A DNA stretch of 64,000 bases from Verrucomicrobiota bacterium (GTDB taxonomy: Bacteria > Verrucomicrobiota > Verrucomicrobiia > Limisphaerales > Fontisphaeraceae), in NCBI GenBank assembly GCA_037139415.1, contig JBAXGN010000006.1:1-64000 (forward strand). The letters are read 5' to 3'. Within the stretch, counting starts at the first letter, position 1, and each line of letters begins with the position of its first letter. The notes under the pieces were generated by a model. That model did not search any database. It saw only the letters and a list, made by a program, of their open reading frames with translations, and had not been told where the DNA came from. Position numbers and translations under genes: made by a program. Positions 485 to 53,467 of this stretch are shown here, one piece after another.

Positions 485-940
485 TTACATTCCTTGGCCA
501 GGCGTTAAAGACACGGTACAAGTGAGGTTGGTGCCAAACTTGCGCGCATCATAGTTACCCTCGAAGAGCATGCTCAACGGCCTCTCCCAAGACTGGTAGT
601 TTGGTGCAGAAACCTGAAGTTTGCCTCCCAGGTGATAGATCTCAGTGGTTTTAGTCGGCCCCAAACTCCGACGCCAGGTATCGGTCCGTTTGGCAAACCA
701 ATGCGATATATGTGCCAAACCGTCATTGCCGGTTGCTTGAACCGCACGCCGTTCCACATTTTCAATGGTGACGGTGAACGGCCCCGAAACCGGCTGCCCG
801 TGTTGATCAAGAACCCGGATGTGGAAACAGAGGTCCCCGTAGCCAGTCGTGCTCGCTCCCCCGGGAATCACAAGATACCCGACCAGCAACAGCAGGGCGA
901 CGGAAACGCTTACCAGAAAAGTTTTCGACGGCCTCATCAT
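485..940 (-). CDS. Small secreted or membrane-anchored protein, carboxypeptidase-regulatory-like fold
   Basis: This is a 151-residue protein. Residues 6-26 form a strong hydrophobic segment (signal peptide or anchor), followed by a Gly/Ser/Thr linker. The body starts with FHIRVLDQHGQPVSGPFTVTIENV, the usual look of a carboxypeptidase-regulatory or Ig-like beta-sandwich in which 'D-x-x-G-x-P-V-x-G' opens the domain. No catalytic motif is visible. The start ATG at 940 is followed by a second Met. Upstream (941-1149) there is no gene, only part of a dispersed repeat. Role unknown; the fold is inferred from the pattern only. It may be co-transcribed with the pilin-like gene at 1-310. Confidence 0.6.
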   Translation of the reverse strand: MMRPSKTFLVSVSVALLLLVGYLVIPGGASTTGYGDLCFHIRVLDQHGQPVSGPFTVTIENVERRAVQATGNDGLAHISHWFAKRTDTWRRSLGPTKTTEIYHLGGKLQVSAPNYQSWERPLSMLFEGNYDARKFGTNLTCTVSLTPGQGM

Positions 941-1041
941 AAAACAGCGGAGGATGCGACCAACTGGTTCATGCCTTTAATTTTTGCTCCCAACCCACGG
1001 TAAGCGGACGCGGCCAGCCGTCGCAATGCTCCCCATAGCGA

Positions 1042-1105
1042 TGCATGGTCGGAGTATCATTGCTGAACTGATAAGAATTTGCTTTTGGCTCACTATGCAT
1101 CTAGA
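1042..1105 (-). repeat. Dispersed repeat, copy A (partial)
   Basis: The stretch reading ACTGATAAGAATTTGC, followed by a T-rich 'TTTTGGCTCA', matches the element seen more completely at 17630, 18753 and 20809. In minus orientation it contains a short frame beginning ATG CAT AGT GAG and passing through 'ANSYQF', comparable to 'TNSYQF' in copy C. This copy lacks the conserved CACTTGTCGCGTTGCGGTA half. It lies in the 209-bp space between the genes at 485-940 and 1150-2478. Confidence 0.5.
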
Positions 1106-1149
1106 CGAGCCTACACCCACCCCAGTTGGGGAATCAATTATTGGCCGGA

Positions 1150-2478
1150 TCAAACCTTCCAAGGGCTGCGGTAATCGCGCGTCAGCCATTTGGGATCGCT
1201 GGTGCTATCCGCGAACGCGAGCTTCTTGGGATCCCACTTGATCTTCTTGTTGTTGTAGTAGGCCTGGTTCATCAGGTGGCAGCAGATGGCTGAGCGGGCG
1301 CCGACCTGTTCGCTGGTGATCGGTTTCTTGCGGGACTTCACGCAGTCCATGAAATCAGCGATGTGGTTCTTGCTTTCGTAAAGCTTGATCTTGGCGTCCT
1401 TGAGGAACTCCTTTTCAGCAATTTGAACCTGGGCCGTGCAAGAGGTGTCTTTGTCTTCCTTGCCTTTATAGGAGGCGATGGTCTTGCCCTGGCGAACCAC
1501 CACGAACTTACCGCGGTTGACCATGACTTCGCCCTCGCTGCCGAAAAAGTGCACGCCGAAACCATCCGCGTGCTTGACCGTGATGCCGTTGGCATAAACC
1601 AACGTCGCGCCGCGCTTGGCCCCGGCCTGCTCCGGCGGCAAGGCTTCCACCGGGCCGCTGGCGTCCATGCCCAGGCCCCATTGCGCGATATCGAGATGGT
1701 GCGCGCCCCAGTCCGTGACCATGCCGCCGCCAAATTCCCGATAGGTGCGCCAGTGCGGGAAATGGTTATGGATGCCGCGCGGACTCAAGGTGGAGTTATA
1801 GGGCCGCATGGGGGCCGGGCCAACCCATAGGTTCCAGTCCAGCCCCGGTTCTGCGGCTTCTTCCGGCAGATCGCACGGCACCCCGGGATCGCCAAACTGG
1901 CATTCGACGCGGCTGATCTTGCCGATGGCGCCGTTCTGCACCAACTCGCAGGCGATGCGGAATTCCTTGCTGGACCGCTGCATGGAGCCGGTCTGCAACA
2001 CGCGCTTGTTGGCATCCACGGCGCTGAGCAGCGTGATGGATTCGTGCAGGTTGTGCGTGAGCGGTTTTTCGCAATAGACATCCTTGCCGGCGGTGAGCGC
2101 GGCCATGACGATGACGGTGTGCCAGTGGTCCGGCGTGGCAACGCAGACGGCATCAATATCCTTGCGGGCCATCAGTTCGCGGAAATCGTTGTACGATGCG
2201 CAGGCGCTCCCCTGTTCACCCTTCTTGCCGTAATTTTCGTCCACGCGTTTTTTGGCGGCTTCGCGGCGGGTGGTGTCCACGTCACACACGGCCAGCACTT
2301 TGGTTTCCTGGGAGAGGAAACCGCCCAACAAACCTTGCGCCTGTTTGCCCAAGCCGACGAAGCCCATCGTCAGTTTGCTGTTGGGTTTGGTATCCGCCGC
2401 CCAGATGCCAGAGGGCAGGATAAAGGGAACGCTGAGGGCAGCGGAGGTTTGGAAGAATGAACGACGTGAGAGTTGCAT
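1150..2478 (-). CDS. Gfo/Idh/MocA family oxidoreductase, Tat-exported
   Basis: The product is a predicted NAD(P)-dependent sugar or sugar-acid oxidoreductase of 442 residues. The start at 2478 is preferred over an upstream alternative because it opens directly with a twin-arginine signal (QLSRRSFFQTS, RR at 5-6) followed by a hydrophobic stretch to about residue 28. The Rossmann motif GFVGLGKQ is at 39-46, the cofactor/substrate motif CEKPL at 136-140, and DWGAHHLDIAQW in the C-terminal domain is typical of the family. Tat export suggests that the protein folds with its cofactor before reaching the periplasm. Verrucomicrobiota carry many such paralogues near carbohydrate-degrading enzymes. 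It is divergent from the large secreted protein at 2845. The substrate cannot be told from sequence. Confidence 0.9.
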   Translation of the reverse strand: MQLSRRSFFQTSAALSVPFILPSGIWAADTKPNSKLTMGFVGLGKQAQGLLGGFLSQETKVLAVCDVDTTRREAAKKRVDENYGKKGEQGSACASYNDFRELMARKDIDAVCVATPDHWHTVIVMAALTAGKDVYCEKPLTHNLHESITLLSAVDANKRVLQTGSMQRSSKEFRIACELVQNGAIGKISRVECQFGDPGVPCDLPEEAAEPGLDWNLWVGPAPMRPYNSTLSPRGIHNHFPHWRTYREFGGGMVTDWGAHHLDIAQWGLGMDASGPVEALPPEQAGAKRGATLVYANGITVKHADGFGVHFFGSEGEVMVNRGKFVVVRQGKTIASYKGKEDKDTSCTAQVQIAEKEFLKDAKIKLYESKNHIADFMDCVKSRKKPITSEQVGARSAICCHLMNQAYYNNKKIKWDPKKLAFADSTSDPKWLTRDYRSPWKV

Positions 2479-2844: not shown

Positions 2845-5800
2845 ATGAGACCGGGCGGCATAAAACAGGGGAGCCTGATTTTTGGATGGATGCTGGCAGC
2901 AGGGGTGACTCTGCTAGGTGCTGGCAAAGCATCCGATATGCCGATCGCGCCGGTCCCCAGCACAATCACCAACGAGTGTTATTCACTCACTTTGGCTGAT
3001 GGCGGGGCGATGTTATTGACTCCAGGGATGTCGCCGCAGCGGATTATTCCGGAGTTCACCGTCCTGCTCAGCGAGCGGGACCCGGGGATATTCCGGAACT
3101 TTAATCATCCCAATCACCCCATCGCACCACGCCCGGCAGTCCGGTGGCGCAATGCCACCGAAACGGCGGAATCCTTGACCGCCTGGCTGGCTTCTCCGAC
3201 TGTGCACGCCGGCATTCAATACGACGCCTCAGTCAGGAATGATCCGGTGGAGGGTTTGGTTTGGGAGTACCGGGACAAGACCGGGCGAACGGCCGTGCGG
3301 GTAGCGGGGAAATCCGGCGAAGGGGCAACCCGGCCATTCACAGTCGGGGAGAAGCGGATCGTGCGGGCTGCCAAAATCAGTGTGACAGCTCAAACCATAA
3401 GCTGGGAATTTGCGCCACAACCGGAATTCGCATTGTCCGCGACGCTCACGCTGCCCGCCGGGAACGGCGATCCGGAACTTTCCCTGGTGCTGACACCCAA
3501 GCAGAGCCGGTTCTTTTCCGTGGCGTTTACCGGTGCGCCAGCGACGCCGCGCACGAACCTGGTGCGCGCCCCGCAAGAATGCGCCGGACCTTATGGGCGG
3601 CAGGGCGACTTTGTGCTCAGCGAGGCGGATCTCAAATTACCACGGGTCTTTACCGCAACGAAAGAGGGCTGCTTTGCCTTGGTGGCGGCCCCATCCGAAT
3701 GCCGGTTCCGCCTGCCCGCTCTGGAGGATTCCCGATTCGGGTTGATGCGGAGTTTTGACCAGGATGCGGTGCGCCCGGTCCTGATCGCCCCCTTGTTGGG
3801 CGGAGCGGAGTCACGGATGGTGGCCGGCAAGCCATGGAAGTTCACCATGCGTCTGGTGGCGAAGGCGGGGGATTGGAAAGTGCTGCAGCAGCATGTTGCA
3901 TGCGGAATTTTTGGCCTGCATGACGACCGGGATAACTCGGGCCCCGGCTCCCTCAACGCCACCTTGGAGCGCGTCATGGATTTCCTGGATGATCGCAACG
4001 GGCATAACTACGCGATGTGGAGCGACGAGCAGAAGTATTACGATTATTTCACCGACCAGACCGGCGTCTTCAAACCGTTCTCCCCGCTTTACGGGCTGGG
4101 GGCTGCGCTGGCCACGGACGACGAGGCGTTTTTCCGCCGCCGGGTCCGGCCTGCGATCGAATTCGCGCTGTCACGGCGGTATAATTTGTTTGCCCCGTTC
4201 GAGGGGGTGAACCGCCGGATTGTGAAGGCCGCTGCCAGTAATGTTGGGGCTCCTTATATCGGCTACGCCCAACTGATTTCGCTCCATGAAATGCTCCAGC
4301 AACGGTCGCCGGTATTGCGGGCATTGGCGGACCAGAAGCCGGTGGCCACCATTCCCGATTTTTTGGCGCGTTGGCGGATTACGGGTAAACCAGCCGACCT
4401 TGAGGCGGCCTGGAAATCCGCCGATGGCCTGCTGAAAACCGGCAACGCCGGGGCCGAGCACGCACTGTTTGATTACCTGGAATTATACGATGCCACCAAG
4501 GATGCCCGCGCGTTGCGCGCTGTGGTCGAAGCCGCCTATGAGCGCACCGTCTCCCTGAACCTTTACCCGATGCCACCCGCGACCCAAGTCACGGTGGATG
4601 CCAAGGGCGTCGCACCGGTGCATCGGCACTCCTTTGGGCGGCACAAAAACATTTGGGGGTTCCTGGAACCCGTCCCCGTTCCTGCACCGGAAGTCACGGT
4701 GCCCGCCTGGCGTATCGCGCGGCTTGGTCTGGCTTCCCCGGCGTATCCGATTGAATACTGGATGAACACGCATGGCGCGTTGCTGCGCGCAGCAGCGGTG
4801 GCGGGCGACGACTTCCTCCGCGACGTGGCCCGGTGGGGCATGGTCGGACGCTTCGGCAATTATCCCGGCGACAATCGTTCCCACGACTCGCTGATCGCCG
4901 AGCGGCCGGATGCCGTCGAGACTCCGCCGTGGAACTGGAATTTTGCCACGGTGAATCCCGGTCATGCCTGGGACTTTGCCGGAGCCATCATTGACTGGCT
5001 GGTCAGCGATGCGTTTCACCGTTCTGGAGGCGCCATTGATTTCCCGGCCCACAGCGCGGCGGGCAGCCAATTCCGCGTGCGCCTGTACGGTGCGGCACCG
5101 GGGCATTTCTACGGCGAGACCAACGTGCATCTCTGGCTGCCCAAGGGGTTACTCGCCAGCGACGACCGGGAACTCGATTGGCTCGCCGCGTATGGCAACG
5201 GCCAGCTTTACCTTGCGTTCTTGAACCAATCCAGTCACGAAACCCGCGCTCAGATCCACCTGAAACCGGAACTTGCCGTCTGCCCCGATGGTCCGGCCCG
5301 GCAATGGCGGAACAATCAAATCGCTGAACCGCTTTTCGTGCAGGACAATCGCTTTGGCCTGGCTGTCCCGGCCAAAGGCATCGTCGCCCTGACAATTCCT
5401 GCGGCTGTCAAACCACGCTTCCAGGCCAATCTTTTGGCGGCCGACAACCCGGCGTTGGGTGCGGGCAGCTTCCAGCAGTTCCAAACCTCCTTCGGCCAGG
5501 TTCACGCCATGCTTTTGCGTGCCGGAAAAGGCCTGACAAGTGCGTATATTTACACCGATGCCTCCGCCGAAGACGTCATCGCCGCCCGCCTGCTCTGGCG
5601 GCAGGGAGCAGGCGCATGGCATGAAATGACCGATGCCATCTTCCCCTACGAATTCTCGATTGAACTCAGTGATGACGGCGGCGATTTTCAATGTTGCTTT
5701 GAAGTGGAAGACACCCAACAGAAAATTCAGAATTCGCCGGTCCTCGTCCTGAAACTCACGGGCGGTCCCGCCGCACCGGCTGGTCCGCCGCCGTTGGCAT

Positions 5801-6321
5801 CCTCTCCTTTCATCGCCCCCTTCCCGCGCAAACGTTCGCCGGCTCCAGAAAGCTTCCGGGTCAGCGATGATTTTCTCGGCTACCTCAAGGGCGCGGCCAA
5901 TCCGCAACAACTCGGCTTGCGCGGCGGGCGCTTCTACCCCTATTCGACTCCGTTGGGTCGGCGGATCGCCTATGGTCTTGAGGTTTGGGACAAGGCGCTT
6001 TACGCCCAAGGCTGCACTCCCGCCGAAGCCACTGCCCGGCTGCGCGCCGAACTCGCCCAGTGCGCCGGAGAACTCACCGAACGGCTGGCCCGTCAACCCA
6101 ACCCGGTGAGCTACGACCGGCTCCCTGATTCACAGCGCGAACTCCTGCTAGACTTCGCCCTTTCCGAAACCACTGTGCGCATCCCTGCGAATGTTCTGGC
6201 GGCCATCCTTGCCAATGATTGGCGCGCCTTGAAAACCAATCACGCTTATATCCGCTACGCCGGCAACGCTCCCGACCACAACCGCAACCTGGCCTTTGCC
6301 CGGCGCTGGAAGCTGCTTTGA
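2845..6321 (+). CDS. Large secreted protein, possibly carbohydrate-active, with lysozyme-like C-terminus
   Basis: The product has 1158 residues with an N-terminal signal peptide (hydrophobic core about 11-27). The first ~340 residues look beta-rich. Residues about 350-800 are rich in aromatic/helical motifs (ERVMDFLDDRNGHNY, YWMNTHGALLRAAA, RFGNYPGDNRSHDSLIAE), as in alpha/alpha-barrel glycoside hydrolases and lyases. Residues about 840-1000 are again beta-rich. The last ~135 residues (RFYPYSTPLGRRIAYG, then TPAEATARLRAEL, then DSQRELLLDFALSE) recall the order of elements in GH24-type lysozymes, although the usual catalytic Glu is not evident. No family was recognised with certainty. Its position beside Gfo/Idh/MocA genes suggests a role in extracellular polysaccharide use. 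The function is inference. Confidence 0.75.
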   Translation: MRPGGIKQGSLIFGWMLAAGVTLLGAGKASDMPIAPVPSTITNECYSLTLADGGAMLLTPGMSPQRIIPEFTVLLSERDPGIFRNFNHPNHPIAPRPAVRWRNATETAESLTAWLASPTVHAGIQYDASVRNDPVEGLVWEYRDKTGRTAVRVAGKSGEGATRPFTVGEKRIVRAAKISVTAQTISWEFAPQPEFALSATLTLPAGNGDPELSLVLTPKQSRFFSVAFTGAPATPRTNLVRAPQECAGPYGRQGDFVLSEADLKLPRVFTATKEGCFALVAAPSECRFRLPALEDSRFGLMRSFDQDAVRPVLIAPLLGGAESRMVAGKPWKFTMRLVAKAGDWKVLQQHVACGIFGLHDDRDNSGPGSLNATLERVMDFLDDRNGHNYAMWSDEQKYYDYFTDQTGVFKPFSPLYGLGAALATDDEAFFRRRVRPAIEFALSRRYNLFAPFEGVNRRIVKAAASNVGAPYIGYAQLISLHEMLQQRSPVLRALADQKPVATIPDFLARWRITGKPADLEAAWKSADGLLKTGNAGAEHALFDYLELYDATKDARALRAVVEAAYERTVSLNLYPMPPATQVTVDAKGVAPVHRHSFGRHKNIWGFLEPVPVPAPEVTVPAWRIARLGLASPAYPIEYWMNTHGALLRAAAVAGDDFLRDVARWGMVGRFGNYPGDNRSHDSLIAERPDAVETPPWNWNFATVNPGHAWDFAGAIIDWLVSDAFHRSGGAIDFPAHSAAGSQFRVRLYGAAPGHFYGETNVHLWLPKGLLASDDRELDWLAAYGNGQLYLAFLNQSSHETRAQIHLKPELAVCPDGPARQWRNNQIAEPLFVQDNRFGLAVPAKGIVALTIPAAVKPRFQANLLAADNPALGAGSFQQFQTSFGQVHAMLLRAGKGLTSAYIYTDASAEDVIAARLLWRQGAGAWHEMTDAIFPYEFSIELSDDGGDFQCCFEVEDTQQKIQNSPVLVLKLTGGPAAPAGPPPLASSPFIAPFPRKRSPAPESFRVSDDFLGYLKGAANPQQLGLRGGRFYPYSTPLGRRIAYGLEVWDKALYAQGCTPAEATARLRAELAQCAGELTERLARQPNPVSYDRLPDSQRELLLDFALSETTVRIPANVLAAILANDWRALKTNHAYIRYAGNAPDHNRNLAFARRWKLL

Positions 6322-6516: not shown

Positions 6517-7179
6517 TCAAATCCGCTCGATCAGTATTTCTTGCGGTAAGCGGACTTTGGGGGCGCGCGCGTAGTTATCGGTGGCCGAGCGGTAGCCCAA
6601 GGCGCACGCCACCACGGCTTGGTAACCGGAATTGTTCAGGCCAAGGATTTCATTATACTTGTCCGGGGCAAAGCCTTCCATGGGGCAGGCGTCCACCCCG
6701 ACCAAGGCGGCGGCGGTGAGCAGGTTGCCGAGCGCAATATAGGCTTGGCGTGCCGTCCAGTGATCCAGTTTTTGGGAAAGTGGTCCCTGGATTGAACCTA
6801 CCATCATGTCGCGGTAGCCCTTCAGTGAACCGGCATCCACCTTGCGCACGGCGGCAATCCGGTTGACATACTGATCCACATACTCCACCGGGACCTGGGT
6901 GCGGGCGGCGAACACCACGTAATGAGAGCAATCCACCACCTGTTTTTGGCCCCAGGAATGCGGTACCAATTTTTCTCGCACGAACGAATCGGTGATGATC
7001 AGGAATTTGTACGGTTGCAGCCCAAAGGAGGAGGGCGAAAGCACCAGGGCGCGTTCCAGATCCATCCAAAGTTCACCAGGAATTTTTCGGGCAGAATCAA
7101 AGGCTTTGGTGGCGTAGCGCCATTCCAAGGCGCCAATCAGTTGGCTCGGCGAGATGGCCGGGGTGTGGGCAGTACTCAT
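6517..7179 (-). CDS. Nitroreductase family NAD(P)H-dependent FMN oxidoreductase
   Basis: The protein has 220 residues, the usual length for NfsB-type nitroreductases. The N-terminal RYATKAFD resembles the FMN-phosphate-contacting 'RRSxRxF' region. PSSFGLQPYKFLII is the family motif S-S-x-x-x-Q-P-W/Y, and GVDACPMEGFAPDKYNEILGL is the conserved C-terminal 'G-x-x-x-x-P-x-x-G-F' stretch. Such enzymes reduce quinones, nitroaromatics or related substrates in the cytoplasm using FMN. The ATG at 7179 gives the expected N-terminus. It stands alone between convergent and divergent neighbours; nothing suggests an operon. Confidence 0.9.
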   Translation of the reverse strand: MSTAHTPAISPSQLIGALEWRYATKAFDSARKIPGELWMDLERALVLSPSSFGLQPYKFLIITDSFVREKLVPHSWGQKQVVDCSHYVVFAARTQVPVEYVDQYVNRIAAVRKVDAGSLKGYRDMMVGSIQGPLSQKLDHWTARQAYIALGNLLTAAALVGVDACPMEGFAPDKYNEILGLNNSGYQAVVACALGYRSATDNYARAPKVRLPQEILIERI

Positions 7180-8778: not shown

Positions 8779-11430
8779 TTACAGGGACGGCGTTACAACG
8801 GCCGTTCCAGTGGAGGCGTGTGGCGCATTCCCGGCGCGCACTTCGGTCGGCGGCTTGTAATAGAAGGAATCCCAGTAGGCGCGGTCGGTGGCATAGATAT
8901 CCACAGGTGTATTGGGGCCCAAATCTTTGGGCAGGATGCCGAAGCGTTGCATTTCGCGAAGGTAATGTTCGTTGGGGCGGAAGCCGGGCATATCAAACCG
9001 CTTGCCTTGTTCCAGACGATCATGGGCATTTTGCAACATGGCGAGCATGGATTTGTAGAGCGGATCATTCTTATCCTTGAAGCTGACCTGCTTGCACAGT
9101 CCCAAGCCACCCGCCTCTTTGGCCAGCGGCGCACGCACGATCAAGGCGCGCTCCGGGTTTGAGATATTCTGGATTGATTCAAGGGCATGACCGTACCTTC
9201 CGAGAATGGTCAAGGCGGTGAACTCCTTGCCGAGGCGGTCTTTGTGCGTGACGGAGTGGCAGGAACCACAGCGCTGCATGACTTGCGGGCTGCCGCCCAC
9301 ACCCACGGGATAACTGCCACAGCCCAAGGAGGCATAGGTGCCGGGATACGTGGCGCTGGTTTCGATCCAAAGCCGTAACAATTTCATTTCATGCTCCGTG
9401 AGCTTGGCATTGTAATGGCTGCCATCCGCCAGTTTCATGAGGCGACTGGCCGCGCTGCCGTAGCTGTAAGGTTCCCGGTTGCCATGGGGTTGGTTCCGCC
9501 CATCGGTGACGAGTCCGCGCTGGTTGATCGTCCAATAGCTGATGGTGTACATCGAGGTTTTATCCCCGCACAAATCCACCTTGCCATCCCGCTTGTCCGA
9601 GTTGTGGCAACTGACGCAACGACGGTCCAGGATGGGCTGAATATCCCGTGGAAAATCCAACACGGACGGCACATCCTTGATGGGTTTGACCGGGACCGGC
9701 AATTTTTTCATGGCCATCAGGGAAAGGTTGTTGGGGAGCGCGGCCTGGGTGCGTTGCTCATGGCAGCCGACGCAACCCGTGGTTTCGCCGGGTTGCAGCG
9801 TGACGAAGCTATGCATGCGTTTGACCGAGCGGTCATTCTCATCCAGGGCCACAAAGAACAGGGAGCGCAAGGCCGGCAATTCCAGAAATGCCGAGCCATC
9901 CGGTTCCACCGGCGCTTCGCCAACGATTTCGGCCAGGGTGAACGAACCGCCAATGGTCAGCGGCTCCATGCCGCCGGAGAAGTTGACGGGCTTGGGCAGT
10001 TGCTGGAGCACCAACAGCTTCTTGATGCTGCCGCGCTTGACGCCCGACATGTTGCGCCCGGTATAAATGTCTTGCAGGAATAGCCGCCCCGTGGCTTGTG
10101 ACAATTCCACGCGGGCCGGAATGACGCGTTCCCGTTCGCGCGGCTGGATGGGCCGCGGTTCATGGCATTGCAACTGTTTCGGGTCGTCAGGCAGGGCGAA
10201 AATACGTTCCGCGTTGCCCTCGCCATCCATCACAAACAAACCCTTGGCGTGCGCCACTAGAAAACACGTTTCGGTGACGGGATAGGGATCCTTGTAGTCA
10301 CCGCTCTTGCTGACAGTGCGATAAGAAGTGGGATCATCCGGCCCGTTTGAGCCATCCAGAATGGTGATGGGGCCCAAGTGTTCCGGTCGGCCATGGCCGG
10401 GGGAAAAACTGGCGACAATCTTGGTGGTGCCGGGAATCGGCTTGGCATCCAGCATCACCATGCCTCCCTTCATATTACCGAAAAACACATTCTGGCTGGT
10501 GCCATCCGGGTTCATAGTCCAGAGATGGTGGAAATCCAACTGGCTGCGGTCCACGTATTCCCAACGCATGTAGAGAAGGCGGCCATCCGGTAACACCCAC
10601 GGGGTATTGTCGTGGTCGTTATTGGTGGACAACATGCGCACGTTTTTCCCATCCCCGTCGCACCGATGCAAGGTGGCCACACGCGTGTGCCAGCAATTCA
10701 CATAGCGGCGACAACGGGACGAGGTGAACACGATGGAGCCATCAGGACAATACGTGGGTTCAATGTCGTCGTCCGGCCCATCCGTCAACTGCCTCAGGCC
10801 GGTGCCATCCACGTTGATTTCGTAGAGATGGAAAGGATGCTCTCCGCCCTTGCGATAGGCAAAGAGGATCTTGTTGCCGTCATAGTGAACCTGCGGATCA
10901 CGGATACCCCCTTTGGGGTCCGCAAGAATATCCTTTACCGCGCCCGTGCGCAGATTCATGCGGCATAGCCGGCCACCTTCACCGTAGCCCCAATAAACCC
11001 CATCCTCTTTTTTGAATCCAAGAGTTTGCGCTTCCTCCGAGTAATCCGCATAATTTCCAAAGGTAACATACCAATGGTCGCGTCCCGGCACCCGCACTGC
11101 AAATACGATTTCCTCCGTATCCTTTAACGGGCCGGCCAGCATTTGCTTTAATAGCGGGCCGGGGTATTCCGCGGGGAACGTCATGCCGGGCGGAGTATAG
11201 GCCTTGCCCGCTTTGGCCGCCGGCTTGGCAGGCGCGGCAGTCACGGCTGTCTGCGGCTTGGCGGCGGCCGGTGCTTTGGCCGCAACCGCGTTGGTCTTAC
11301 TGGCGGAATTGAGCGGGCCGGGCGCCGACTGAACGGCGGCCGCCAATGCCACCACCGCACCCACGGTGAGCCAGCGCTTCCCGAGCTTCAAGTTTGCAAA
11401 CATTTTCATCGTGATACCCGCATTATTCAA
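8779..11430 (-). CDS. Three-haem c-type protein with TolB/PD40-like beta-propeller (hydrazine-synthase-alpha-like)
   Basis: The product has 883 residues from the first ATG; starts at 11409 or 11403 would place the signal peptide (about 18-36, KRWLTVGAVVALAAAVQS) closer to the N-terminus. An Ala/Pro/Lys linker follows. Residues about 90-450 contain repeated 'DG-x-I-x-F-x-S' elements (ILFAYRKGGEHPFHLYEINVDG, PDGSIVFTSSRC, PDGRLLYMRW, LWTMNPDGTS), as in PD40/TolB propellers. Three CxxCH haem sites follow: CVGCH (553-557), CVSCH (605-609) and CGSCH (721-725). This order resembles the family annotated as hydrazine synthase alpha-subunit middle domain, found in many bacteria that do not perform anammox. 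A periplasmic redox or sugar-oxidation role is inferred. Confidence 0.85.
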   Translation of the reverse strand: MNNAGITMKMFANLKLGKRWLTVGAVVALAAAVQSAPGPLNSASKTNAVAAKAPAAAKPQTAVTAAPAKPAAKAGKAYTPPGMTFPAEYPGPLLKQMLAGPLKDTEEIVFAVRVPGRDHWYVTFGNYADYSEEAQTLGFKKEDGVYWGYGEGGRLCRMNLRTGAVKDILADPKGGIRDPQVHYDGNKILFAYRKGGEHPFHLYEINVDGTGLRQLTDGPDDDIEPTYCPDGSIVFTSSRCRRYVNCWHTRVATLHRCDGDGKNVRMLSTNNDHDNTPWVLPDGRLLYMRWEYVDRSQLDFHHLWTMNPDGTSQNVFFGNMKGGMVMLDAKPIPGTTKIVASFSPGHGRPEHLGPITILDGSNGPDDPTSYRTVSKSGDYKDPYPVTETCFLVAHAKGLFVMDGEGNAERIFALPDDPKQLQCHEPRPIQPRERERVIPARVELSQATGRLFLQDIYTGRNMSGVKRGSIKKLLVLQQLPKPVNFSGGMEPLTIGGSFTLAEIVGEAPVEPDGSAFLELPALRSLFFVALDENDRSVKRMHSFVTLQPGETTGCVGCHEQRTQAALPNNLSLMAMKKLPVPVKPIKDVPSVLDFPRDIQPILDRRCVSCHNSDKRDGKVDLCGDKTSMYTISYWTINQRGLVTDGRNQPHGNREPYSYGSAASRLMKLADGSHYNAKLTEHEMKLLRLWIETSATYPGTYASLGCGSYPVGVGGSPQVMQRCGSCHSVTHKDRLGKEFTALTILGRYGHALESIQNISNPERALIVRAPLAKEAGGLGLCKQVSFKDKNDPLYKSMLAMLQNAHDRLEQGKRFDMPGFRPNEHYLREMQRFGILPKDLGPNTPVDIYATDRAYWDSFYYKPPTEVRAGNAPHASTGTAVVTPSL

Positions 11431-11529: not shown

Positions 11530-12342
11530 TTATTCATTGGGCAGGCGGTTACCACCGCCACCGCCTAGTCCGTTACCTTTTTTTCCGGCGAGAATGGCGG
11601 CGCCGAGCGCGCCGGTGAATTGCGGTTGCGGGACCAACTGCACCGGGCAGCCCAGGGCCTGCTCCAGCGCGCGCAGCATGCCCGGTTGCAAGGCCACGCC
11701 CCCCGTGAAATAGACCGGCGGCACAATGGCGCGGCCCACCAGCGTCGTCACGCGCATGGCAATGGCGTTCTGCACACCGGCGGCAATGTCCGGCGCGGAC
11801 ACGCCCTCGGCCAGCAGGCCGATGATTTCCGTTTCGGCAAAGACCACGCACATGCTGCTGATGGTGGCCGGGGCGCGGCTGGCCCGGCAAAGGGCGTCGA
11901 GTGCGGCAATGTCCACGCCGAGCCGCGAGGCGACAACTTCCAGGAACCGTCCGCTCCCGGCGGCGCAGCGATCGTTCATCGCAAAATCCCGCACCCGCCC
12001 GCCGTCTTCCAGACTGATGCTCTTGCTGTCCTGTCCGCCGATTTCAAGGATCGTGCGGGCCGCCGGCGCGAGGAAATAGACACCCTGCGCGTGGCAGGTG
12101 ATCTCGGTGATGGTGGTGTTCGCAAACCGGATGGCGTTGCGCCCGTAGCCGGTGGCAACGACCGGAATGCCGTCCCGCTCCACGCCCGCGTCGCGCAAGG
12201 CTTGCTGGAAAAGTTTTTCCGAGAGTTTCTGCTGCTCGACACCCTGGTCCGCGATGGCGGTGGCCAGGATTTTCGATTGCGCGGTGTCGAACACCACGAC
12301 CTTGATCGCCCGCGATCCTGCATCGATTCCCGCGCAAATCAT
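11530..12342 (-). CDS. 2-hydroxyacyl-CoA-dehydratase-type activase / DCCP reductase (BadF/BadG/HgdC ATPase family, YjiL-like)
   Basis: The 270-residue protein starts with the ASKHA ATPase phosphate motif GIDAGSRAIKVVVFD. IGGQDSK is at 101-107. The two cysteines that together bind the subunit-bridging [4Fe-4S] cluster of the homodimer are present in their usual contexts: NDRCAAGSGRF (C126) and SSMCVVFAETE (C165). VYFTGGVALQPG is the late nucleotide-binding motif. The family hydrolyses ATP to push one low-potential electron into a partner iron-sulfur protein. It lies 10 bp downstream of the partner gene at 12353-13543 and is surely in the same operon. The C-terminus is Gly-rich (GNGLGGGGGN), probably disordered. 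Confidence 0.9.
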   Translation of the reverse strand: MICAGIDAGSRAIKVVVFDTAQSKILATAIADQGVEQQKLSEKLFQQALRDAGVERDGIPVVATGYGRNAIRFANTTITEITCHAQGVYFLAPAARTILEIGGQDSKSISLEDGGRVRDFAMNDRCAAGSGRFLEVVASRLGVDIAALDALCRASRAPATISSMCVVFAETEIIGLLAEGVSAPDIAAGVQNAIAMRVTTLVGRAIVPPVYFTGGVALQPGMLRALEQALGCPVQLVPQPQFTGALGAAILAGKKGNGLGGGGGNRLPNE

Positions 12343-12352
12343 AAGGTTTGGT

Positions 12353-13543
12353 TCATAGGCGAGCCCGGACGGTTTCCATCAGCGCCTCCAGGCGCGCGGT
12401 GAGGCGCGCGGAATCGGCGGGGGAATAATCCGTGGTGATTTTCAAGTATGGGTGGTGCAAGGTATCCTCGGTGAACGTGCGCACGCGATAGGATTCCACA
12501 TCGTAAGTGAGGCAGGCCTGCCAGATGAGTTCAATCACGCAGTGGGGCCGGAATTGGGCCGCCAGCGCGCGTAGGGTATCGAAGCGCCCGGTGTTGGGGG
12601 TCATCACGGAGCAGGGCAGGTGATAATATTTGCGCGCGAGGCTCCGGATGGGGTCAGGGTCATCCTCCGCCACATCTTCCAGGATCGGTTTCAGGCCGGT
12701 GCAGTTCTCCTGGCAGACGACGATTGCGCCGCAGGCTTCAATGAGTTCCAGCACGCGCTCCGCCCCGTGAGCCATCGGCACACCGGTGAGCAACACGCGC
12801 ACCGGCGCTTTGCGCGGCGGGGCGGCGGGTTCATGAAGACCCTCATGGACGTGCCGCAGAATGGCCTCGTATTGCTCCAAGTCCGCCGAGATGCCCGAGA
12901 TGAGACTTTTGAGGTCCAGCAATTGCCGTCCCGAGAAGGGCGGGATGTCTAGCGCCATCAGCTCGGCGAGTTGCCGACGCAAGGCGCGCTCGCGATTCAT
13001 CACGCGGATGGCATCGCGCAGGCGGTCATCGGTAACTTGCACCTGGAACTGCGCTTCCAGAAACCGCATGAACTTCCGCAATTCCTCCGTCCAATGCTCC
13101 AGCGCCCCGGCGTCCTCGGATTTTTGCGGCAGTTCGAGCACGTACATGGGCTTGGTGGCGGCCATCAACTCGAACATCTTCTTTTTGCCATCGCACGTCG
13201 TCTCCGCGACTACCAGGCTGGCCCAGTTGAGAAATGGATTCGAGGCTTTAACCAGGTAACCGTAGGTGGATTTGATCAGGGGACACAGGTTGGCTGGCAA
13301 ATACTGTTCGGCGACGGCCACGGTCTCGGCGGACCCGCCGCATAGACATACCGGGACTCCCCCGGCTGCCATGATAATCTCCCGCGGAGTGAATTCGCAC
13401 ATTATGCCGACGATGGGTTGCCCCCGTGCATGGGCCGCCTCGGCGTAGTCGTAGCAATGATCCAACATGGCGTCAAAATAACGCCAGGGACTGGATTTCC
13501 CCGGCGAATCGAGGTGGGCCGGTGTGCACGTGGTATCAGTCAT
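12353..13543 (-). CDS. 2-hydroxyacyl-CoA dehydratase family protein, YjiM / double-cubane-cluster-protein type
   Basis: The 396-residue protein has the diagnostic blocks of this family: GIMCEFTPREIIMAAGGVPV (C49), CLCGGS (C66, C68), NLCPLIKSTYG (C87), AETTCDGKKKMFE (C117), CQENCTG (C277, C281) and IWQACLTYDVES (C344). From memory, these blocks match E. coli YjiM closely. A single catalytic protein is paired with a single activase, whereas true 2-hydroxyacyl-CoA dehydratases have separate alpha and beta subunits. The one-plus-one layout is that of double-cubane cluster proteins, which reduce small molecules at an [Fe8S9] cluster with ATP-driven electrons. The natural substrate is unknown. The protein is cytoplasmic and likely oxygen-sensitive. 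Confidence 0.85.
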   Translation of the reverse strand: MTDTTCTPAHLDSPGKSSPWRYFDAMLDHCYDYAEAAHARGQPIVGIMCEFTPREIIMAAGGVPVCLCGGSAETVAVAEQYLPANLCPLIKSTYGYLVKASNPFLNWASLVVAETTCDGKKKMFELMAATKPMYVLELPQKSEDAGALEHWTEELRKFMRFLEAQFQVQVTDDRLRDAIRVMNRERALRRQLAELMALDIPPFSGRQLLDLKSLISGISADLEQYEAILRHVHEGLHEPAAPPRKAPVRVLLTGVPMAHGAERVLELIEACGAIVVCQENCTGLKPILEDVAEDDPDPIRSLARKYYHLPCSVMTPNTGRFDTLRALAAQFRPHCVIELIWQACLTYDVESYRVRTFTEDTLHHPYLKITTDYSPADSARLTARLEALMETVRARL

Positions 13544-14031: not shown

Positions 14032-17000
14032 TCAAGGTTTATCGTTGCAAATAATCCGTTCCAACTTCTCCAGCCGCTGATTCAATAATTGAAGTTGGGT
14101 GTCCCGAGTTGTGATTTCCCGCTGCTGCTCCTTGAGCGCCTCGACCAACACCGGGATTAACATGCTGTAAGCAATTGAATAGTAACCCTCCGCATCCTGG
14201 GAAACTGCTTCCGGGACGATGTCCTTGATTTCCTGGGCTACAAAACCCAGTTGTGCTCTGTTATCGAAATGCATTTGGGGATTCTCCTTGGTACGCCAGT
14301 CGAACTGCACTCCACGCATGGCCTGGATCTTGTCCAAGGCTCCCGACAGCCGGACGACATTGGTTTTAAATCGGGCGTCCGAGAGATTGTTATAAGCACC
14401 AACTCCGGCTACGCTGCCATTAACCTGCAAAGAATAGGACGGGGCGGATACGCCAATGCCCACCGGGCCGTTGTTGACGCTCAACCCGCCCGTAATGCGG
14501 GCACCTCCGCTGGCCGTGAGGCCACCCCGCACATCGAGGCTATTTCCCACTTTCACCGCGTCCCGGGTTTGCAGCGAACCCACCTCCAGGAGTCCTGCCT
14601 CCAACTGTTGGACAAAGGCCCCGCCAAGGTCGAATGCCTGCAGGCTGCCGTCACTATAATTGACGACATAGGCATATCGTCCCGAAACCGCCAGGCCATG
14701 AGGTCCGTTGCCCGTGTTCACTGTACCCAGGCTGACCGCATAGTACGGAATGCTAATGTCGAAGAGTTGCAGCGTACTGCTGCCAAAATTCGCCACGTAG
14801 GCAAAGCGCCCGGCTACCACGATGGAATACGGTGTATTGCCGGTGCCCGCCGCGCCGATCATGGCGGGCGCGGCAGGATTGCCTACATCAAAGGTCCGTA
14901 GCAGGCTTCCCTGCAAGACGTACGCATAACGTCCCGATACCGCGATGCAAGTCGGCGAAACGACCACGGCAGAACCGACGACGACCGGCGCGGAAGCATT
15001 GCTCACATTGATGACTTGCAAAGCACCGGCATTGCAAAGCACATAAGCGTAACAGCCGGAAACCGCCACCGACACCGGCTGATTGGAGGTTCCCACCAAC
15101 CCCACGCTGGCAGGAGCCGCGGGATTGCCCACGTCGATGATTTGCAGGGTGTTGCTACCCAAGTTTGCAACATAGGCATAGTGCCCCGAAACCGCCAACG
15201 CATTGGGGCTACTGCCGGCGCCCATGTTGATTGAACCAACGCTAACCGGTGCGGATGGGTTGCTAACGTCGATGACTTGTAAGGTGTTGCCACCTGCGTT
15301 CGCCACATAGGCGTAGCGCCCCGCCACCGTGACAGCCCAGGGGCTATTACCCGTCGCCACCGTGCCTAGACTGGCCGGAGCGGCGGGCGTGTTCACGTCG
15401 AAAATCTGAAGCGTGTTGCTGGAAGAGTTTACCACGTAGGCGTAGCGGCCCGAAACCGCCACAGTACTGGGATTAGATCCAGCCCCAGTGCTTGTCGAGG
15501 CAAGTCCGGAGGCAGGCACATTTGGCGGCACGGTAAATGGAGCGACGAGATTGGTCGGACCGATGGCCAGCGAATTTGCATTGATGGCAGTCGGAAACAC
15601 AATGTTGAGGCTACTCAATCCTGCTCCGTTACCGATAAACGATCCCAAAAAATTACCCGCCGAAACTGTGCCATTATCCACGCTCAACCCTCCTGAAATT
15701 CGCGCACTTCCACTAACCGTCAGCCCACCACTAACATCGAGATTTTTACCCACCGACACTGTGTCGCGGGATTGCAGGGTCCCCGTGACTGTCGTTCCGG
15801 CTTCGAAGTGCTGCAAATACGCGCCACCCAATTCATACACCTGCAATGTATTGGATAGTATGTTGACCATGTAGGCATAGCGTCCGGCTACGGCCACCGC
15901 CATGGGGCCGCCGGTCCCGGTGCTGGTTGTTCCTGCGCTGGCCGGCGCGGCCGGATTACTGACATCAAAAACCTGAAGCGTGTTGGCACTGTAGCTGACA
16001 ATGTAGGCATACCGCCCCGCTACCGCAACACAATGCGCGTTGGCACCAATGCTAGCCGAACCGACACTGGCGGGCAGCGGATAGTTACTGAGATCAAAGA
16101 TTTGGAACCGGCCGCTGTTGCCCGTGACATAGGCATAACGTCCCGCCACCGCGATGGACAGCGGCATATTACTGGTTGTCACGGAGCCAAGGCTGACGGG
16201 GGCGGCGGGATTGGCCACATTGAATACTTGAAGGGTGTTGGAACCTGAATTGACCACATAGGCATATCTGCCATTCAAGGCGATGGCGGCGGGATTGCTG
16301 TCGGTGCCCACCGAGCCGACACTGATCGGTGCCGTCGGATTACCGACATCAAAGATGTTGAGGGTGTTGCCGCCGGAATAAAGCACGTACGCATAACGGC
16401 CGGCGACAGCGATGGACTGCGCGTTATTACCCACCCCCGCTGACCCTGCGAGGACGGGAGCAGAGGGGTTGCTTACGTCAACGATGCGCAGGTTGTTGCC
16501 TCCCATGTTCACTACGTACGCATAACGGCCGGCCACCGCCAGGGACGTGGGCAACCCTCCGCCACCACCGACTAAAACCCCACCCAAACCTATGGGATTG
16601 GCAGGCAGGCTGACATCGGAAATGCGAAGATAACCGCTTTGGTCCACCAGGTAGGCAAAGTTACCAACCACCGTCAAGGCCACCGGGGACAGCGCTGCTG
16701 AAATCGAAGACACGGCACTGGCTGGAAGGTTTGGCGGTACGGTCAGCGCCGAAATTTGATTGGTCCCTCCCACGGTCAGGGTGGCCCCATTGTTCGTCAC
16801 CACTGCCGCCGGCAGTTGGGCTAGTGATAGCGTACCGCTGATTTGAGTTGCCTGCAGCGATCCGCTTAACTGGGTCGCGGGCAGTGTGCCAGACAGATTG
16901 CCTGCCGCATTAGCAAACATCGCATAGGGGGTGGGAGTGATTTTTTGCCTGGGAGCCAGGATGGTGAAGGCCCCGCCACCATTGGTGCGGACGCCAATTT

Positions 17001-17457
17001 CCAACCACCGGTCCGGCCCGGTAAAGGTGGCGCCAAAATCGAGCGTGACCAGAAACACTCCATTGGTTACCGGCATTGCTGCATTCGTAATGACCGTGCC
17101 GACTTGGCCAACCCCGTTGCTGACACTGCACAGGGTGAAAGTCAGGTCGTAGATACCAGTGACGGGATTCGCGCTGTTGCTCAAGCGTCCTTGGTAGGTG
17201 AATGCGGTCCCTTGCGCCAAAAGCGGCAGTGGAAACGCGAGGGCCATGGTCGCCAGTGCAAGGAGTTGAATGCGGACAACCCATGCTGGTGATAGAAAAT
17301 CAGTTGCTCGCGCCCTTTCCGCTGCGATCTGCCGCTGTTTGGAGGTGGTGCGGGAGCCAACTGGGTCTTCCAAGCCTTCGTACACGCGTGTTGTCATAAA
17401 ACTCATGGAGTTGGTTTTACCTCCTGTCTCCGGACTGGCCGCGATGCGATTATTCAT
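14032..17457 (-). CDS. LVIVD-repeat beta-propeller surface protein with C-terminal S74 (tail-fibre chaperone) domain
   Basis: The frame encodes 1141 residues. A start at 17406 is also plausible: an AGGAGG lies 13 nt upstream of it, and it shortens the tail before the signal peptide (about residues 58-82). Next is the 'YQGRLSNSANPVTGIYDLTF' domain seen in verrucomicrobial fibre-like proteins. Two blocks of about seven LVIVD-type repeats follow (pattern GRYAYVVNxGxNTLQIFDVSNPAAPxxxGS). Each block ends in a short stalk: LGGAYLQHFEAG..GKNLDVSGGLTVSG and LGGAFVQQLEAG..GNSLDVRGGLTASG. The last ~110 residues (SDARFKTNVVRLSGALDKI, QLGFVAQEIKDIVPEAV, YSMLIPVLVEALKEQ) are a peptidase S74 intramolecular chaperone, which normally trimerises fibres and cleaves itself off. 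A cell-surface adhesive or fibre role is inferred. Confidence 0.85.
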   Translation of the reverse strand: MNNRIAASPETGGKTNSMSFMTTRVYEGLEDPVGSRTTSKQRQIAAERARATDFLSPAWVVRIQLLALATMALAFPLPLLAQGTAFTYQGRLSNSANPVTGIYDLTFTLCSVSNGVGQVGTVITNAAMPVTNGVFLVTLDFGATFTGPDRWLEIGVRTNGGGAFTILAPRQKITPTPYAMFANAAGNLSGTLPATQLSGSLQATQISGTLSLAQLPAAVVTNNGATLTVGGTNQISALTVPPNLPASAVSSISAALSPVALTVVGNFAYLVDQSGYLRISDVSLPANPIGLGGVLVGGGGGLPTSLAVAGRYAYVVNMGGNNLRIVDVSNPSAPVLAGSAGVGNNAQSIAVAGRYAYVLYSGGNTLNIFDVGNPTAPISVGSVGTDSNPAAIALNGRYAYVVNSGSNTLQVFNVANPAAPVSLGSVTTSNMPLSIAVAGRYAYVTGNSGRFQIFDLSNYPLPASVGSASIGANAHCVAVAGRYAYIVSYSANTLQVFDVSNPAAPASAGTTSTGTGGPMAVAVAGRYAYMVNILSNTLQVYELGGAYLQHFEAGTTVTGTLQSRDTVSVGKNLDVSGGLTVSGSARISGGLSVDNGTVSAGNFLGSFIGNGAGLSSLNIVFPTAINANSLAIGPTNLVAPFTVPPNVPASGLASTSTGAGSNPSTVAVSGRYAYVVNSSSNTLQIFDVNTPAAPASLGTVATGNSPWAVTVAGRYAYVANAGGNTLQVIDVSNPSAPVSVGSINMGAGSSPNALAVSGHYAYVANLGSNTLQIIDVGNPAAPASVGLVGTSNQPVSVAVSGCYAYVLCNAGALQVINVSNASAPVVVGSAVVVSPTCIAVSGRYAYVLQGSLLRTFDVGNPAAPAMIGAAGTGNTPYSIVVAGRFAYVANFGSSTLQLFDISIPYYAVSLGTVNTGNGPHGLAVSGRYAYVVNYSDGSLQAFDLGGAFVQQLEAGLLEVGSLQTRDAVKVGNSLDVRGGLTASGGARITGGLSVNNGPVGIGVSAPSYSLQVNGSVAGVGAYNNLSDARFKTNVVRLSGALDKIQAMRGVQFDWRTKENPQMHFDNRAQLGFVAQEIKDIVPEAVSQDAEGYYSIAYSMLIPVLVEALKEQQREITTRDTQLQLLNQRLEKLERIICNDKP

Positions 17458-53391: not shown

Positions 53392-53467
53392 GGGGTCGTA
53401 GCTCAGTTGGTAGAGCACCACAATGGCATTGTGGGGGTCACAGGTTCGAATCCTGCCGGCTCCACCA
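53392..53467 (+). tRNA. tRNA-Ala (anticodon GGC)
   Basis: A 76-nt cloverleaf. The acceptor stem GGGGTCG pairs with CGGCTCC and includes the G3:U70 pair that marks alanine tRNAs. The D stem is GCTC/GAGC. The anticodon stem CCACA/TGTGG has the loop ATGGCAT, so the anticodon is GGC (reads GCC and GCU). The T arm has the TTCGAAT loop with an A-C mismatch at the outer end of the stem. CCA is encoded at the 3' end. It is not embedded in an operon with rRNA. Confidence 0.95.

Follow-up and report, generated by a model that had tools for sequence, protein, structure and literature searches.

Double-cubane cluster proteins (DCCPs) are ATP-driven reductases that have been compared with nitrogenase. The DCCP of Carboxydothermus hydrogenoformans, which works with the reductase DCCP-R (PDB entries 6eno, 7yyl and 7yzm), reduces acetylene, hydrazine and azide, and the biological function of double-cubane proteins was stated to be unknown in 2025 (PMC11971306, in excerpt). 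Here we describe a DCCP gene and its activase in the first 64,000 nucleotides of contig JBAXGN010000006.1 of a Verrucomicrobiota bacterium (assembly GCA_037139415.1; this whole stretch is called the window below), together with the larger module to which such genes belong in relatives. On balance, we think that this DCCP-type reductase acts in selenium metabolism, shares its activase with a second enzyme and likely releases selenide for SelD, although the reaction itself is one that we infer. The role in selenium metabolism and the sharing of the activase are based on gene linkage, co-occurrence and the presence of a single activase in the window's genome.

A link between DCCPs and selenium is already in print as a hint. 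A preprint on mlp gene clusters describes DCCP as 'provisionally linked to selenium metabolism' and reports that many selenium-type clusters carry DCCP and DCCPR, read there as methyl-selenide recycling, while the methyl-sulfur clusters carry MarHDK, a nitrogenase-like reductase that cleaves C-S bonds (PMC10418091, in excerpt). A 2-hydroxyglutaryl-CoA dehydratase subunit and a CoA-substrate-specific activase also appear beside selenium genes in a STRING table, and the excerpt of that paper gives them no discussion (PMC5322559). What is new here is the selenium context of a defined module, and a module whose enzymes appear to share one activase.

The two genes lie on the same strand, the activase downstream, with 10 nt between the DCCP stop codon and the activase ATG:

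12353 to 13543, minus strand: predicted DCCP, the catalytic reductase; 396 residues, ATG start, intact open reading frame
11530 to 12342, minus strand: predicted ASKHA-type activase (DCCP reductase, DCCP-R); 270 residues, ATG start, intact open reading frame

The longer protein matches PF06050 at 324 bits over most of its length and the shorter one PF01869 at 196 bits, both far above chance (Pfam). More specifically, the 396-residue protein passes NF040772 (double_cubane), the NCBI equivalog for double-cubane-cluster-containing anaerobic reductases, with 406.3 bits (cut-off 350), and the activase passes TIGR00241 with 242.3 bits (cut-off 125.4). By sequence, the nearest PDB chains to the 396-residue protein are those of DCCP (7yyl/6eno), and the PDB matches of the activase are the HAD, MBR and DCCP activases. 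A promoter and terminator scan gave nothing better than shuffled sequences.

To locate the cluster ligands, we transferred the published [8Fe-9S] ligands of BzdN (PMC11971306, in excerpt) by alignment to 87 DCCPs, and found Cys at each of the six positions in 87/87:

13397 to 13399, minus strand: codon of Cys49, aligned [8Fe-9S] ligand (BzdN Cys36)
13283 to 13285, minus strand: codon of Cys87, aligned [8Fe-9S] ligand (BzdN Cys73)
13193 to 13195, minus strand: codon of Cys117, aligned [8Fe-9S] ligand (BzdN Cys100)
12701 to 12703, minus strand: codon of Cys281, aligned [8Fe-9S] ligand (BzdN Cys263)
12611 to 12613, minus strand: codon of Cys311, aligned [8Fe-9S] ligand (BzdN Cys293)
12512 to 12514, minus strand: codon of Cys344, aligned [8Fe-9S] ligand (BzdN Cys327)

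The activase has two cysteines, each conserved in 53/53 activases, which we take to be cluster ligands as in HgdC:

11965 to 11967, minus strand: codon of activase Cys126, expected intersubunit [4Fe-4S] ligand
11848 to 11850, minus strand: codon of activase Cys165, expected intersubunit [4Fe-4S] ligand

In the same alignment, the six DCCP ligands are all kept in E. coli YjiM and in the DCCP of 6eno; three are kept in MbdN and four in HadC, the ones missing from these two including ligands of the distal cluster. An AlphaFold2 model of the 396-residue protein, built from a 20-sequence alignment (pLDDT 86.4), has DCCP 7yzm as its best PDB match (query-normalised TM-score 0.90, 31% identity), followed by BzdN, MbdN and HadC. 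We also placed the protein in a tree built from 56 hand-picked rows, where BzdN, MbdN, HadC and H320 (one of two further PF06050 proteins of this genome, H320 and H461, described below) sit on long branches. The window's clade is sister to YjiM (97/89), with 6eno further out and the H461 clade between them, while HadC, BzdN and MbdN fall outside the DCCP/YjiM grouping, some joins being flagged uncertain. The H320 and H461 of this genome belong to two clades of their own. The sequence-only reading had assigned the pair to the YjiM/YjiL (DCCP/DCCP-R) type, with all expected cysteine blocks in the catalytic protein and one catalytic subunit plus one activase at the locus. The equivalog score, tree, fold and ligand cysteines uphold that family assignment: by its sequence features, the 396-residue protein is a DCCP-type reductase and the 270-residue protein its activase.

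The locus thus shares with C. hydrogenoformans a single catalytic subunit with an activase, the six cysteines and the fold, but its clade is separate in the tree and its relatives sit in a larger module with a methyltransferase and a pair of HGD-D proteins. E. coli YjiM/YjiL, likewise adjacent genes with six cysteines, is the sister of the window's clade, but at 39% and 42% identity, and the E. coli pair adjoins yjiN, ytiA and yjiK; the stretch viewed contains no sel gene. The E. coli genes yjiL and yjiM (locus L118, 1423-3351) are among the genes changed, with negative values and alongside hyc/hyp, in a section on the LysR-type regulator YgfI (PMC9068703, in excerpt).

To see in what company such pairs occur, we took 80 loci, the best of 218 confirmed matches in species genomes (57-69% identity, many on short contigs), which their record titles place in Verrucomicrobiota, Planctomycetota, Sumerlaeota, Armatimonadota, Lentisphaerota, Myxococcota and others. 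We then searched 90 sources (these 80 loci, nine stretches of the window's own and related genomes, and the window) by tBLASTn with eight queries. There were matches in 89/90 sources. Along with DCCP (86) and the activase (64), three genes recur: a Cys-rich S-adenosylmethionine (SAM) methyltransferase, MT (59), and two diverged HGD-D subunits, H320 (53) and H461 (53). Together these five make up the module. The same search found selA in 35 sources, selB in 34 and selD in 33. Filters for coverage and intact frames kept 85/86 DCCP, 53/64 activase, 57/59 MT, 52/53 H320 and 49/53 H461 rows.

DCCP and activase are on the same strand in 66/66 stretches holding both. MT, H320 and/or H461 lie between them in 44/66, and no module gene does in 22/66. 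The earlier description of a lone two-gene unit, unlike the two-subunit dehydratases, is therefore too narrow, given these intervening genes and an HGD-D pair elsewhere in the window's own genome. MT is of the Methyltransf_11 type, with Cys59 in 57/57, Cys60 in 56/57 and Cys131 in 57/57 sequences. We found no description of the MT-DCCP-H320-H461-activase module in the open-licence PMC literature, including PMC5029168, PMC9312934, PMC11097638 and PMC13188914.

H320 and H461 are both PF06050 proteins (Pfam). The three proximal cluster cysteines are present in 52/52 H320 sequences of the main set, and the distal ones have mostly been lost; the copy at locus L120 has all six ligands and that at L119 five of six. 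H461 has Cys136 and Cys165 aligned with DCCP Cys87 and Cys117 and a nearly invariant Cys409 near Cys344, without distal ligands, and its model (pLDDT 87.1) is closest in fold to DCCP and the HAD alpha subunit and also close to BzdO alpha-type subunits. From these features, the two look like an enzyme of the two-subunit dehydratase or benzoyl-CoA reductase type, resembling the design of BzdNO and HadBC, which share with DCCP the superfamily, an activase and Fe-S chemistry. Could the window's protein itself be a component of a 2-hydroxyacyl-CoA dehydratase or benzoyl-CoA reductase, acting on a coenzyme A (CoA) ester with an HGD-D gene on another contig supplying the second subunit? The common Pfam family, the two further HGD-D genes with one activase in the genome, and the H461 fold would all fit. 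However, the 396-residue protein scores 73.5, 66.6 and 55.5 bits with the BzdN, BcrC and HadC equivalogs (cut-offs 453.8, 421.15 and 700), keeps all six double-cubane ligands, unlike HadC and MbdN, and groups with YjiM and then DCCP rather than with HadC, BzdN or MbdN. DCCP is also homodimeric, no second subunit is encoded beside the gene within the window, and the annotated subset of recurrent neighbour clusters showed no CoA ligase, CoA transferase or acyl-CoA gene. We therefore regard a CoA-ester substrate, as used by BzdNO and HadBC, as improbable for this protein.

Other recurrent neighbours are genes of selenium metabolism. At least one of selA, selB and selD is present in 47/80 loci; among the 31 loci flanked by 7 kb or more on each side, 22 have a sel gene. 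Gene orders differ. Many Planctomycetota have selB-selA divergent from MT-DCCP-H320-H461-activase-selD, loci L008, L022 and L052 have DCCP-activase-selA-selB-selD, and L120 carries selA-selD-MT-H320-H461-DCCP-activase in one run, with the same genes at L119 but selA-selB divergent. ARAGORN found a selenocysteine tRNA (tRNA-Sec) gene in 13/25 stretches, a hand-chosen set made up mostly of loci in which a sel gene had been seen before; ten further stretches gave 0/10. The linked SelD is a long form, found at L106 (7916-9508), L125 (3805-5376) and 26 further loci. Its N-terminus is rich in cysteine (six Cys, each in 27 or 28 of 28 full-length copies), and all 28 have a C-terminal CxxC. Both copies that were run against Pfam have a CMD (AhpD-like) domain as their C-terminal part. 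The SelD of the window's genome is one of the 28.

Co-occurrence across genomes gives a similar picture. We sampled 193 Verrucomicrobiota genomes (at least 90% complete) and 195 Planctomycetota genomes. Among the former, seven have a DCCP above the cut-off, ten have selA and six have both (p 2.2e-8, or 3.6e-7 without the window's genome; Fisher tests ignoring kinship, as are all those below). H461 occurs in 5/193, and all five have both DCCP and selA. For the 39 nearest genomes, a same-order set, the counts are five DCCP, 13 selA and four with both (p 0.035; 0.084 without the window's own genome). The fifth DCCP genome of this set, G006, has selD and a tRNA-Sec gene adjoining its DCCP. Genomes behind eight chosen loci all have selA (8/8). 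Among the ten Planctomycetota genomes with both genes, DCCP and selA lie at most 10 kb apart on one contig in five (G232, G248, G284, G403 and G405). Taken together, the selenium link of the DCCP module is well supported. The substrate, which the sequence-only reading had called unknown, can be narrowed, because the gene neighbourhoods point to selenium.

Several observations weigh against this link. The window itself contains no sel gene or tRNA-Sec gene, and in its genome selA (contig C149) and selD (contig C29) are on contigs other than that of the DCCP. A search for selB and tRNA-Sec in three stretches of this genome (all of C149, 1-34000 of C29 and 24000-37982 of C62), rather than genome-wide, found neither. 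The Planctomycetota co-occurrence is weak (11 DCCP, 124 selA, ten with both; p 0.046, or 0.066 without the centre genome) because selA is so common there. Two DCCP genomes of the phylum samples, G152 and G276, have no selA above the cut-off, although the DCCP of G152 is of another type (29% identity). The module is dispensable for selenocysteine, as many genomes carry selA and lack a DCCP. Furthermore, Fisher tests take no account of phylogeny, and nine of the 31 well-flanked loci lack a sel gene.

These points allow another explanation, in which the DCCP reduces something unrelated to selenium, such as a small multiply bonded molecule, or serves detoxification, and the sel neighbourhood reflects a shared anaerobic lifestyle or joint horizontal transfer. 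The described DCCP acts on acetylene, hydrazine and azide, with unclear physiological relevance (PMC11971306, in excerpt), and these activities give no pointer to selenium. The loci without sel genes, the window's own neighbours and the absence of a sel neighbour from the E. coli stretch also agree with it. However, the sel linkage recurs across several phyla in differing gene orders, and selA is present in 6/7 Verrucomicrobiota DCCP genomes vs 10/193 overall. We consider a selenium-unrelated substrate unlikely, though with a chance that deserves to be taken seriously.

How, then, does the module appear in the window's own genome? PF06050 occurs in three genes of this genome (7.9 Mb, 98% complete): the DCCP on the window's contig, and H320 and H461 side by side on contig C62 with MT ahead of them. 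The window's activase is the only TIGR00241 match in the genome. A different split is found in genome G036, where MT accompanies DCCP on one contig and a second contig carries the activase and H320/H461. Because the window's genome has one activase, and that of G036 sits with the HGD-D pair, the simplest reading appears to be that a single activase is common to DCCP and the H320/H461 enzyme.

Activases of this family deliver ATP-driven electrons to their cluster protein. In the window's clade, the homodimeric [4Fe-4S] activase would hydrolyse ATP and push single, very-low-potential electrons onto the [8Fe-9S] double cubane, where the 396-residue protein would reduce a small substrate, as its sequence, ligand residues and fold suggest. 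The reductase would serve selenium metabolism together with the Cys-rich SAM methyltransferase and the heterodimeric HGD-D enzyme, with the reductase and the HGD-D enzyme drawing on one activase. Its likeliest job would be to release or salvage selenide reductively from an organic or methylated selenium compound, by C-Se cleavage, and so to feed the long Cys-rich SelD. The methyltransferase might make a methylated intermediate or a more readily cleaved selenonium, but this is a guess. More specifically, the pair may be one arm of a selenium-assimilation pathway in Planctomycetota, Verrucomicrobiota and their neighbours, absent from the papers searched, in which one activase drives the homodimeric DCCP and a heterodimeric, dehydratase-like radical enzyme that cleave C-Se bonds with MT and pass selenide to the long SelD; in this full form, we offer the proposal as possible but doubtful.

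The idea of C-Se cleavage draws on a likeness to mlp clusters and to the C-S cleavage of MarHDK, which is ATP-driven. MarHDK, a methylthio-alkane reductase, cleaves C-S bonds reductively and is found with the non-selenium mlp clusters (PMC10418091, in excerpt), but it belongs to an unrelated protein family and the likeness is one of function only. The type I mlp clusters also have DCCP and DCCPR linked to selenium genes, but there the partners are corrinoid methyltransferases (Mlps), a corrinoid protein and RACE, in place of the SAM methyltransferase and heterodimeric HGD-D enzyme seen here. Given the company of corrinoid methyltransferases in those clusters (PMC10418091, in excerpt), the DCCP might instead reactivate a corrinoid protein or another selenoenzyme, as RACo/RACE activators do. 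However, the methyltransferase here is of the SAM-dependent Methyltransf_11 type, and no corrinoid protein was seen among the annotated recurrent neighbours; we think such reactivation very improbable. UroD-type Mlp methyltransferases and RACE did not turn up among these neighbours either (the genome was not searched for any of the three).

One more reading is that DCCP or the HGD-D pair is a chalcogen-loading device, which binds selenide (for example as a bridging atom) and either hands it over or relies on it as a selenium cofactor. Relatives hold an extra sulfide on the cluster, and a transfer of sulfur is ascribed to one relative, 4-thiouridine monophosphate desulfidase (PMC11971306, in excerpt). 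The conserved Cys-rich N-terminus of SelD and the AhpD-like domain of its two scanned copies would suit such a hand-over. The ATP-driven activase is retained throughout, though, and this points to electron supply rather than transfer, so that we think chalcogen loading quite improbable, and selenide as a bridging atom of the double cubane very improbable. Release of selenide for SelD remains our preferred reading.

Several further features were seen in and around the relatives' modules. We looked for selenocysteine as in-frame stops in the tBLASTn alignments of all eight queries. Ten were seen in the main set, most of them at alignment ends or in single diverged stretches. The H320 gene of genome G006 (L106, 4878-5741, plus strand) has one in-frame TGA; as this position is not Cys in the compared relatives, we do not call H320 a selenoprotein, and the TGA may stem from a sequencing error, decay or recoding. 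A stop flagged in the H461 of G225 was discarded, since the open reading frame as read is uninterrupted (469 residues). At L020 (3871-4893, minus strand), SelD has an in-frame stop at its active-site position (CAG*ASK), where selenocysteine is known to occur, and this stop likely encodes selenocysteine. Locus L112 of genome G035 encodes an apparent activase-DCCP fusion (about 723-1766, minus strand), a 682-residue protein with an activase-like N-terminus and a DCCP-like remainder with six ligand cysteines. A further activase match upstream (1890-2669) may be its own N-terminal part.

An ABC transporter lies upstream of MT-DCCP at L015 (3835-6614). The matches of its three parts to SaoX, SaoP and SaoA all score below cut-off, and relatives of its permease occur at L023, L041 and L067; it is possibly an importer. 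A NapH-like Fer4_5 membrane ferredoxin protein is near the module in 13 loci (for example L025, 16442-17164). We ignored several recurrent neighbour clusters as antisense shadows of module genes, judged by position and opposite strand. Many Verrucomicrobiota genomes also have one frame each of about 690-770 residues that matches only positions of about 110-372 of the double-cubane model (about 25-52 bits), which by this partial match is another HGD-D-like family.

Directly downstream of the activase in the window (8779-11430, minus strand) is the gene of an 883-residue protein. This protein contains a hydrazine synthase alpha middle domain and PD40 propeller repeats, and it matches cytochrome c7 weakly. 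We weighed it as a functional partner because DCCP reduces hydrazine, and treat it as incidental; no such protein is among the listed representatives of recurrent DCCP-neighbour clusters. The sequence-only reading had called the region carbohydrate-rich; of the five neighbours scanned against Pfam, one is a Gfo/Idh/MocA oxidoreductase. Other features are:

14032 to 17457, minus strand: 1141-residue protein that has LVIVD repeats and ends in a Peptidase_S74 endosialidase chaperone domain
2845 to 6321, plus strand: 1158-residue open reading frame with no Pfam match at E 0.001
6517 to 7179, minus strand: Nitroreductase-family protein
53392 to 53464, plus strand: tRNA gene; nothing else in the window matched Rfam at the gathering threshold

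The repeated tie of the module to selA, selB, selD and tRNA-Sec across phyla leads to a short list of testable selenium substrates for DCCPs. One activase that appears to serve both a DCCP and a two-subunit dehydratase-like enzyme also bears on the proposed origin of dehydratases and benzoyl-CoA reductases from DCCP-like ancestors, as does H320, because its L120 copy keeps six ligands and most others only the proximal three. If true, the selenium-assimilation reading would supply the first physiological class of substrates for double-cubane proteins.

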